64,000 nt of DNA. It comes from Candidatus Uabimicrobium amorphum (GTDB lineage: Bacteria > Planctomycetota > Uabimicrobiia > Uabimicrobiales > Uabimicrobiaceae). A model generated the notes under the pieces. The model made no database searches. It was given only the letters and a program-made list of their open reading frames with translations, and was not told the origin of the DNA. Shown one piece after another: positions 6,959-60,486 of this stretch; within the stretch, counting starts at the first letter, position 1; each line of letters opens with the position of its first letter. The stretch spans positions 3,100,001-3,164,000 of the forward strand of contig NZ_AP019860.1 of the NCBI RefSeq assembly GCF_009002475.1. Direction: 5' to 3'. A program made the position numbers and the translations under genes.

Positions 6959-8532
6959 TACTTGCTGCTAAAGTTTTGTAAAAAAGGATACAAAAAGTTT
7001 TCCATTCCGGTGTATGGCGGTTTTTGTGTGGGAATGAGCCCTGGCGTGTATCCCTGGCGAATAAAAGGTTCCAAGAGTTTAGAATCGCGACAAATAATGT
7101 GAATAGGCACTGCCCATGAAGGATTGCTTCCGGTGATCGTACCATGTGGTTGGTGGTCTCCCAAGACAATGATCAGACTATCATCATCTATTTTTTGCGC
7201 TAAATAATCTTCAATAGAATGAAGTACATAATCAATAGAACGCACATACCCTTCCGTGGCATTTGACAAATTCGGCCATACAATCGGATAGGTTATTGTT
7301 TGTGTATCGTGATACAATGCTCCATCTTTCAAATTTTTCCAGTCTTCTATATACGGTGGTTGAATGTGAAAGGGAGCATGACTTGAAATAAGTACATACT
7401 CAACGAATAAAGGCGGAGAGCTTTTTTGTACTTCCTCACGATGAATATAATCAATCACATATTGGTCGGTCATTGTGCACCAGCCATATTTTGGTCCACG
7501 GTAATCGAAATGCCACGCATGGTACTTTTGATCGAAACCGAAAAATTTACCAGCAGGCCATGGCTTCGTTGTTCCTGGCATTACAGAAATAGCACGGTAT
7601 CCGGCCTGACGAAAATAATGCGCCATTGTCTTCAATTTTGAACCGAGTAGCATATCGAAAATAATTTGATTGAATGTCTTCACTCCGCACGACATGGCCC
7701 CGTGAGCGAGCCATGAGTTTCCTCCAAATGTCGGAGAAATAATAAAGTGCGAACACACATTGTATTGCTTTTCTTTTAACATAGCCGAAAAGCTGTCTAA
7801 GCGTGGTTGAAGAAGTTGCTGATGACGGGCTTTGTCGAAAATTGTTTTTCCGTATGATTCCACAAAAAATAGCAACACGTTATTTTTACGTAAATATTTT
7901 AAATCATAAGAGGTATTTTTTGCGGTTTCTTCAACATTTTCAATTAGCTGCCGGTACTGATTTTCGTAATGCGGTTTATTGTTCAGAAAATCGACTTGTG
8001 CGGCAATTTCTCTTACACAAGATGGATGAAATACATACACCCCGCTTGCATGTAGTAACAATAAGAAAGACATCGTCGCCAAACTAATTTTTTTGTGCTC
8101 TTTTATCTCGGCTGTACAACAATGTAAACATTTATGGAGCACCCAGTACAAAAATCCCACAACACTAACAGTGACCACACTTCCTAATAAGAATTTCCAT
8201 AAAGGCAGCGAATGGTACACAAAGTGTAAAAGATCGGGAATATATGCCAGATCAATGTAGAGATTAAAAGAACGATGAAAAAACTTCGGCACAGCAAAGA
8301 AACTTAATTTACACAATGTCACCAAAACAATGGTGGTACTCGCAACAAAATACAACCACGGATTTTTTGAAGGAAATATTTCTATGGTAATAAAAAGAGC
8401 GAGAAGTACCGCGAAAATTTCGGGAGCGACAAACAGCCCAAAGAGTACGTTGTGGTGTTGCCATACATTCGCAATATTTGCGACTATATTTAGCAATAGA
8501 AATGCGCAAAGAAAAATAGCGATTTTTTTCAT
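6958..8532 (-). CDS. LTA-synthase-like membrane sulfatase / phosphoglycerol transferase
   Basis: 524 residues with about five N-terminal membrane helices (up to about residue 165) and a large exported alkaline-phosphatase-fold domain. Domain motifs include VLLFFVESYGKTIF, TFGGNSWLAHGAMSCG with the probable nucleophile Ser in GGNSW, and LGDHQPHG near the C terminus as metal-binding residues. Proteins of this family move phosphoglycerol or phosphoethanolamine onto surface polymers or glycolipids. Its coupling to a glycosyltransferase downstream supports a role in making or decorating an envelope glycan. Start and stop both overlap neighbours (4 bases with the Lon-like gene, 1 base with the glycosyltransferase). 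The exact donor is not inferable. Confidence 0.82.
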   Translation of the reverse strand: MKKIAIFLCAFLLLNIVANIANVWQHHNVLFGLFVAPEIFAVLLALFITIEIFPSKNPWLYFVASTTIVLVTLCKLSFFAVPKFFHRSFNLYIDLAYIPDLLHFVYHSLPLWKFLLGSVVTVSVVGFLYWVLHKCLHCCTAEIKEHKKISLATMSFLLLLHASGVYVFHPSCVREIAAQVDFLNNKPHYENQYRQLIENVEETAKNTSYDLKYLRKNNVLLFFVESYGKTIFDKARHQQLLQPRLDSFSAMLKEKQYNVCSHFIISPTFGGNSWLAHGAMSCGVKTFNQIIFDMLLGSKLKTMAHYFRQAGYRAISVMPGTTKPWPAGKFFGFDQKYHAWHFDYRGPKYGWCTMTDQYVIDYIHREEVQKSSPPLFVEYVLISSHAPFHIQPPYIEDWKNLKDGALYHDTQTITYPIVWPNLSNATEGYVRSIDYVLHSIEDYLAQKIDDDSLIIVLGDHQPHGTITGSNPSWAVPIHIICRDSKLLEPFIRQGYTPGLIPTQKPPYTGMENFLYPFLQNFSSK

Positions 8533-9101
8533 GATGTCGTAGTCCGCTCTAAGATCTCGATCATTTGCGGTACAATCTCATCCGCGTTTAATTGCAGAAG
8601 CTCTTGTTTTTCGTTGCGTAGTCCAGATAGCAAAGCACTGACTAGGCCGAATATTTGGTTGTCGTTTTGTGGTATTTTGAGATTTTGCTGTGGTAATTTC
8701 TTCAAGAGATTTTCGATACACACCTTCAAATGTGCATAGTCCCCAGGAAATGATGGTAACTCTGGATCAATCCACTCAACCTCTACGCGTATGTATGGTT
8801 GTTCCTGCAATAGTTTGCGAATCAAAAACCGTCGTTCTCCACGCGCAAAGACAAATATTTTATCTTCGGCAAGCGAACGCAGTGAAATTATTTGCGCAGA
8901 AGTTCCTGTTTTGTGAGGAATCGCTGGAGGTCCTACCTCGGTTCCTTCTTCAATCAAACAAATCCCAAAAGATTGTGATTGTTCAAAACAGCGCGATATC
9001 ATATTTAAATAACGCGGTTCAAAAATTTGCAGAGGGATTACTTGATAGGGAAATAAAACTGTGTGCAAAGGGAAAAGATCAATCACTACTGTTTCCATCA
9101 T
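8529..9101 (-). CDS. LON substrate-binding (Lon-N/PUA-like) domain protein
   Basis: 190 residues consisting of the N-terminal domain of Lon protease without the ATPase or peptidase. The opening DLFPLHTVLFPYQVIPLQIFEPRY is the family hallmark (LPLF..VLFPG..LPL.IFEPRY), followed by GICLIEEGTEVG and ARGERRF. Stand-alone Lon-N proteins occur widely in bacteria; their function is not well settled, with substrate or regulator binding usually assumed. It lies between the K+ channel gene (6-base gap) and the sulfatase (ATGA overlap) in one operon. Confidence 0.88.
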   Translation of the reverse strand: MMETVVIDLFPLHTVLFPYQVIPLQIFEPRYLNMISRCFEQSQSFGICLIEEGTEVGPPAIPHKTGTSAQIISLRSLAEDKIFVFARGERRFLIRKLLQEQPYIRVEVEWIDPELPSFPGDYAHLKVCIENLLKKLPQQNLKIPQNDNQIFGLVSALLSGLRNEKQELLQLNADEIVPQMIEILERTTTS

Positions 9102-10136: not shown

Positions 10137-10359
10137 TTTGCAAGTTTTCTAGTTAAATTTAGAATGCGACCAAAAACTCCGGAGCGCATATCCGCCAAAC
10201 CACTTGATATATTATTGTAAAAATTTATTTGTTCAAGTATATCCTAAAAAAAATTTGTTTGTAAGTATAAAAAAACTTAGAATAATAATGAGAGATCAAA
10301 TACAAAAATTATTTAAATAATTTTTCCATAATGTTTTATGGATAAAAAAAGGATGAAAG

Positions 10360-11301
10360 ATGACAAATAAATTTTCACTTTTTTGTCAGAAGCATCTGCT
10401 TGTATTACTGTGTTTTGCATTTGTGACAACCTCTTTATCTTGGGCAGACGAGAAAAAAACACAGTGGCCAGCGGAGATTTCTAACAAAGAACGCATCCAC
10501 GTTTATAAAAAAATAAACCCCGCTCTCAAAAAAATGCGCGCAGAAAAACGCAAAGTAAGTGTGGGAGTTTTTGGTGGAAAATTATATCGTGGCGATGTGA
10601 TCAAAGTAGGAAAAACCAAATTTACCATTGTCGATTACAAAGGTAAGCAGCATACGATAAAATACAATAAAATTCGTACTTCATACCTAAGTAAAATCAT
10701 TCCAAGTAAACAACAAGACGGCATGGTACTACACTCTTTCGGTTTAATCTCCTTACACGAAGGCGAGAAAAAATTTGCCAAAATTTACTTTGATCGCGCT
10801 ATTAAGCAAAAGTATAGCAAGTCTAAAGAATATGCAAGCCGTGTAGCCGATGACCTCGACAGTCAACGTGAAGAATTCCTTGCACTTAAGGAAAAAGAAA
10901 AACAAGATGAGTTAGAGGCGAAGGAAAAAGCGAGGGAGGAAAAGAAGCAATCACGCTTAGCAAAAGAGCGCTCAAGAATACCCAATATCAAATCCCTTGG
11001 TTCCAGTGAATTGGATGTAAAGGCGAACTCTTTTCCTGGCAAATACACTATTTTTAAATTTGGTGCACCGTGGTGACGTGCCTGCGTACAATTAGAGCCT
11101 CAGGTTGAGGCCATGGTAAACAAAAATAGTAATATGGTTGCTTTGCGTAAGGTAAATATTGAAAGATGGGGATCTCCTGTTGCGAAACAATTTTCACTAC
11201 GTGGTATCCCATATTTTGTTATTACAGATCAACGAGGACAAGTGGTAGACAAGGGTGGATCAAACCTTTTGAGAAAATACCAACAAATGTTCGCAAAGTA
11301 A
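10360..11301 (+). CDS. Exported thioredoxin-fold protein, probable selenoprotein (in-frame TGA = Sec239)
   Basis: Read through the TGA at 11074-11076, this is one 313-residue protein. It has a signal peptide (1-29), a small beta-rich region (about 60-105, VSVGVFGGKLYRGDV), a helical, charged stretch (to about 215) and a C-terminal thioredoxin domain. The TGA falls exactly on the first cysteine of the redox motif: FKFGAPW-(TGA)-RAC. The same frame continues without a break into RGIPYFVITDQRGQVV, which is the thioredoxin cis-proline loop, and ends at TAA. A hairpin with GGT in the apical loop lies 20 bases after the TGA (separate entry). A U-x-x-C redox centre is the simplest reading. The alternatives are a nonsense mutation (TGC or TGT to TGA) or a sequencing error. 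Confidence 0.78.
11074..11111 (+). promoter_or_regulatory. Candidate bacterial SECIS element with recoded TGA
   Basis: After the in-frame TGA (11074-11076) there are 20 bases, then the stem GCCTC (11097-11101), loop AGGTT, stem GAGGC (11107-11111). The perfect 5-bp stem, the 5-base loop with G in its first two positions and a GGT, and the loop lying about 26-30 bases past the TGA fit the published general rules for bacterial SECIS elements, where SelB binds. It lies inside coding sequence, as bacterial SECIS must. Pairing below the 5-bp stem is poor, so the structure is short. Confidence 0.6.
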
Positions 11302-60457: not shown

Positions 60458-60486
60458 TACGACTACTCACAAACTTATTTTACAAA

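Follow-up and report, generated by a model that had tools for sequence, protein, structure and literature searches.

Thioredoxins with a UxxC active site, in which selenocysteine (Sec) occupies the first redox position, constitute a known selenoprotein family (PMC1794560; PMC13188914; the GOS survey, PMC2398784), and Sec-containing representatives are found, for example, in Treponema, Geobacter, and Anaeromyxobacter (PMC1794560, PMC13188914). Sec use has also been reported for Planctomycetes, in a publication whose main text names other selenoproteins (PMC4807772). The gene described here lies in a 64-kb stretch of DNA, called the window throughout, whose first letter is position 1. Its predicted product resembles the known UxxC proteins in having a thioredoxin domain (PF00085) in which Sec substitutes for the first redox Cys. 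Unlike those proteins, it is probably exported, carries an N-terminal region of approximately 170 residues after the leader, and belongs to a distinct subfamily marked by a WxSxVAxQ-like block.

Three further kinds of protein are among the closest known systems. Cys orthologues from the same order (L021/L074, from a metagenome-assembled genome named 'Candidatus Brocadiia bacterium', and L022) have the same leader, N-terminal domain, and thioredoxin domain, but they carry TGC instead of TGA and lack the hairpin described below. Verrucomicrobiota, Omnitrophota, and Auribacterota have Cys homologues that are more distant and likewise carry leaders (L075-L090). These share the thioredoxin subfamily, an RKIDIVNW block, the leader, and a small N-terminal domain with the window protein, whereas their active site is a Cys form (mostly CGPC), their N-terminal domains are of other kinds, and the hairpin is absent. 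The selenoprotein TsoB, which resembles a rhodanese/DsbD fusion (NF045694), gives a weak match to the thioredoxin region (16 bits against a cut-off of 805 bits) and differs in architecture. No description of the subfamily or of the fusion was found in the open-access literature, and both the exported subfamily with its conserved hairpin and the N-terminal fusion appear to be new. A preliminary description of the locus had proposed a new selenoprotein form, which stands for the order-specific fusion and the exported planctomycete subfamily but not for the UxxC thioredoxin itself, which was already known.

A single TGA within a thioredoxin frame

The frame from 10360 to 11301 on the plus strand contains one TGA, at 11074-11076, and closes at a TAA. 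When the TGA is translated as Sec (U), the frame yields 313 residues, including FGAPW-U-RAC and the cis-Pro loop RGIPYFVITD, and the TGA sits at the first redox Cys of the thioredoxin domain (WURAC). The lone interruption reported earlier at the first Cys of W-C-x-x-C is therefore confirmed by the frame and its translation. The features of the locus are as follows.

10343..10352 (ends approximate), plus strand: RBS-like purine-rich stretch (an A-run, then AGGA), read from the sequence 5' of the ATG
10360..11301, plus strand: predicted selenoprotein gene, 313 codons with TGA as Sec, a single in-frame TGA, and a TAA end
10360..10450, plus strand: probable Sec-pathway signal peptide, a hydrophobic stretch ending ...SLSWA-DEKK, read from the sequence
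10480..10824, plus strand: N-terminal domain, comprising a helix, a small beta-barrel with weak profile matches of Hfq/Sm type, and a pair of TPR/Sel1-like helices
10825..10980, plus strand: charged, E/K-rich helical linker, from the sequence and an AlphaFold helix at residues 153-206
10984..11298, plus strand: thioredoxin domain (active site WURAC; cis-Pro at residue 284), from Pfam PF00085, alignment, and Foldseek
11074..11076, plus strand: putative Sec codon TGA, residue 239; 13 other Planctomycetota loci share the TGA here, and the full-length orthologues have TGC
11097..11111, plus strand: bSECIS-like hairpin with stem GCCUC/GAGGC and loop AGGUU, from comparison of Sec and Cys genes
10360-11076 (238 aa), perhaps also 11113-11301 (62 aa), plus strand: expected output of a gene caller

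Judging from the sequence comparisons presented below, this gene very probably encodes a selenoprotein in which the UGA at 11074-11076 is read as Sec, and it almost certainly belongs to a planctomycete subfamily in which this TGA specifies an amino acid and does not end translation. Only three TGA codons in the window are flanked by long open frames (100 or more codons before them and 40 or more after), and of these the one at 11074-11076 alone falls in a redox motif. At 60467 on the minus strand, a TGA separates a 128-codon open reading frame from a 275-codon open stretch that apparently starts its own gene, an arrangement that resembles two neighboring genes and not recoding. An Rfam search of the window at gathering thresholds gave no match.

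Domain architecture and predicted role

The thioredoxin domain is recognized by Pfam (PF00085, residues 228-302, 40 bits against a gathering cut-off of 23.5 bits), and W238, U239, C242, and P284 line up in the alignment with the W-C/U-x-x-C motif and cis-Pro of thioredoxins. Solved structures matched by the protein are thioredoxins and PDI domains. The AlphaFold model of this domain has a pLDDT of approximately 85-90, and a Foldseek search with the modeled domain finds PDB thioredoxins at E ~1e-6. No NCBIfam model recognizes the subfamily, which scores under all thioredoxin cut-offs, including those of the TrxA/TrxC equivalogs (TIGR01068, 33.8 of 96.8 bits; NF006898, 19 of 138 bits; NF008229, 32.9 of 125 bits). 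Hydrophobic leaders are also present at the start of orthologues L021 and L022.

In the proposed mechanism, the ribosome would decode the UGA as Sec by means of SelB, tRNA-Sec(UCA), and the hairpin at 11097-11111. The resulting thioredoxin domain would have W-U-R-A-C as its active site, and the signal peptide predicted from the leader would carry the protein out of the cytoplasm. There, Sec239 and Cys242 would most likely form a selenenylsulfide/dithiol reductase that acts on envelope proteins and is probably recharged by a DsbD/ScsB-type protein, a reading to which we give roughly even chances. The same genome encodes a DsbD/ScsB-like protein with DsbD_N, DsbD_TM, and a C-terminal Trx domain. 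A periplasmic disulfide-reductase role is plausible given the thioredoxin-type active site, the cis-Pro environment, and the presence of this potential donor, and the substrate class, localization, and electron donor are likewise predicted by analogy. The protein could instead be a selenoprotein that functions as a DsbA-/DsbC-like oxidase or isomerase, or in handling peroxides or metalloids. Exported proteins with a thioredoxin fold do include oxidases and isomerases, but the domain matches the thioredoxin and PDI families and not DsbA, the residue before the cis-Pro is Ile as in thioredoxins, and a DsbD-type donor is available, all of which make such a function somewhat unlikely compared with disulfide reduction.

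The N-terminal half offers other clues. Residues 41-155 match no Pfam family. A profile of this region gives several Hfq chains at E values of 0.01-0.2 for its first half and TPR matches at 1e-6 to 0.01 for its second half. The full-length AlphaFold model contains a helix at residues 42-61, four strands within 65-101, and helices from 123 onward; a model of the isolated domain has low confidence (pLDDT 53), insufficient for searching by fold. The profile matches suggest that this half of the protein combines an Hfq/Sm-like barrel with a TPR/Sel1-like region, and the full-length model is in keeping with this. The domain occurs in 5 of the 40 genomes searched, all from the same order, with nine matches in the genome that carries the window gene, among them Ser/Thr-kinase and other proteins (L041/L163, L043/L166, L169, and L042/L159). 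Some of the proteins bearing it contain Ser/Thr-kinase and PQQ-type repeat sequence, as recognized by eye, and in one genome of the order the domain stands ahead of a different thioredoxin domain (L157/L028). Because its spread is restricted to one order and it is joined to kinases and to another thioredoxin, the domain looks like a lineage-specific adaptor.

The barrel and TPR-like region might position the protein by binding a partner, although we rate this slightly below an even chance. A more far-reaching reading, which as a whole we consider rather improbable, is that the locus represents an undescribed, exported Sec-thioredoxin subfamily of Planctomycetota with a strongly conserved hairpin, one member of which is fused in this lineage to a barrel-plus-TPR adaptor shared with Ser/Thr-kinase proteins; envelope thiol chemistry would then be coupled to the expanded signaling system of the lineage.

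A bSECIS-like hairpin in the Sec genes

Bacterial SECIS elements typically form a stem-loop approximately 16-37 nt from the UGA, with a G among the first two loop positions. In the window gene, GCCTC (11097-11101) and GAGGC (11107-11111) enclose the loop AGGTT (11102-11106). The stem begins 20 bases past the TGA and the loop starts 25 nt after the UGA, in keeping with the bacterial rule in both spacing and loop G. The hairpin was thus placed correctly, and its likeness to a bSECIS element judged correctly, in the preliminary description; comparison of genes further reveals that Sec genes conserve it and Cys genes lack it.

In most Sec genes, bases 24-36 counted from the first base of the TGA read CCTCAG(G/T)T(T/G)GAGG, which corresponds to a common hairpin of CCUC-[AGGUU/AGUUG]-GAGG. 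The codons CCT, CAG, TTG or GTT, and GAG are retained in most Sec genes even at 65-75% GC. Of 15 Sec genes, 9 form four or more base pairs next to the loop and have a G at the first or second loop position, and none of the 23 Cys genes does so (Fisher p = 3e-5, with relatedness ignored, so that the test overstates the independence of these related rows). Six Sec members (L045, L047, L052, L055, L057, and L066) are without the whole stem in the same register. The two outer stem pairs covary among G-C, A-U, and U-A, with a covariation score of 0.216 compared to 0.099 for shuffled alignments, and only 1 of 500 shuffles scored as high. Furthermore, sliding the stem partners against each other lowers pairing from 84% to 32-56%. 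The hairpin overlaps the codons of a conserved P-Q-V/L-E, and its conservation therefore is partly at the protein level. The folding energy of the window hairpin is unremarkable (z about -1); the evidence for this candidate element comes from comparison between genes, not from folding energy.

Relatives, decoding machinery, and the genetic code

Homologues were sought first in 59 relatives and then in 392 Planctomycetota genomes. Except for a few divergent members, the subfamily scores at approximately 75 bits or more, and ordinary thioredoxins reach approximately 60 bits at most. TGA is found exactly at the first redox Cys in 14 core members, namely the window gene, a paralogue in its own genome, and 12 core loci from other Planctomycetota; a fifteenth, L066, is divergent. 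Five of the TGA members (G131, G190, G148, G177, and G061) were absent from the alignment and model that found them. The paralogue (L040/L050; L050:1380-1797, around 1548290-1548580 of contig C1) is a short protein with a WUGAC active site and a hydrophobic N-terminus, is 49% identical to the window protein over the domain, and carries the same CCTCAGGTTGAGG hairpin. The full-length orthologues L021 and L022, which come from two genomes of the same order and are 32-35% identical overall, carry TGC at the Sec codon.

Relatives thus have either TGA or TGC at this codon, with frames intact on both sides. The alignment that had been called for at this position accordingly finds Sec or Cys, and the random stops and frameshifts expected of decaying genes were looked for in the relatives and not seen. 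These results bear on the possibility that the gene is a pseudogene, a Cys thioredoxin with a recent TGC to TGA nonsense mutation. TGC in the full-length orthologues of the same order is what such a history would leave, but beyond the TGA the reading frame is conserved and undamaged, the same TGA recurs in the paralogue and in at least 12 loci of other families, and the hairpin is specific to TGA genes, leaving this explanation only a very slight probability. A sequencing or assembly error at 11074-11076 is more improbable still, given TGA at the same codon in the paralogue and in independent assemblies of other species.

The relatives of the organism place it in the phylum Planctomycetota, and a large genome with many kinases makes the Uabimicrobium lineage likely (PMC11032199). 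The 9.5-Mb genome contains each of the genes for Sec synthesis and insertion whose presence had been proposed as a check. These are selA (420 bits); a tRNA-Sec with anticodon UCA, scoring 67.5 bits and over the Rfam cut-off; selB, over its cut-off and covering positions 1-580 of 581; and selD (394 bits; L018, C1:8531822-8532745). The selD gene has an in-frame TGA of its own, within HGAG-U-ACK, and is itself a selenoprotein gene. Genome-wide reassignment of TGA, for example to Trp or Cys, has a negligible chance of being correct, because TGA also acts as an ordinary stop that terminates 6 of the 32 long open reading frames of the window, as well as the gene at 8529-9101 with a LON substrate-binding domain, and because tRNA-Sec and the complete Sec machinery are present. 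Overall, sequencing error, pseudogene formation, and code reassignment are effectively excluded, and the earlier proposal of a Sec239 redox center is supported by the Sec machinery, the TGA and TGC relatives, and the hairpin comparison.

SelA is found in all 14 of the Sec-member genomes checked, compared to about 86 of 119 genomes of the phylum that score over the cut-off. It is also retained in five of seven Cys-member genomes, so the Cys forms cannot simply be attributed to loss of the Sec trait, an explanation that was rejected on these grounds. At least five changes between Sec and Cys are needed on a 38-row tree, and the window gene and the paralogue are sisters with support of 99/96; many other forks are weak, which makes the number of Sec/Cys gains and losses uncertain. 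One of the two patterns used in a wider contig scan required ADWC, biasing that scan toward Cys members and making it unfit for estimating Sec frequency outside Planctomycetota. A search of viral contigs found no relatives.

Standard gene callers would truncate these genes at the catalytic residue, and the redox domain would consequently be missed here and in at least 12 other planctomycete genomes. The subfamily profile and the hairpin pattern can be used for re-annotation. The order also supplies natural Sec/Cys pairs of one architecture, in genomes (that of the window gene, G003, and G004) that all retain SelA, and such pairs are useful for asking why Sec is retained or lost. In another planctomycete genome, G041, three subfamily matches with an in-frame TGA are found, on contigs C36 (L047), C487, and C512.
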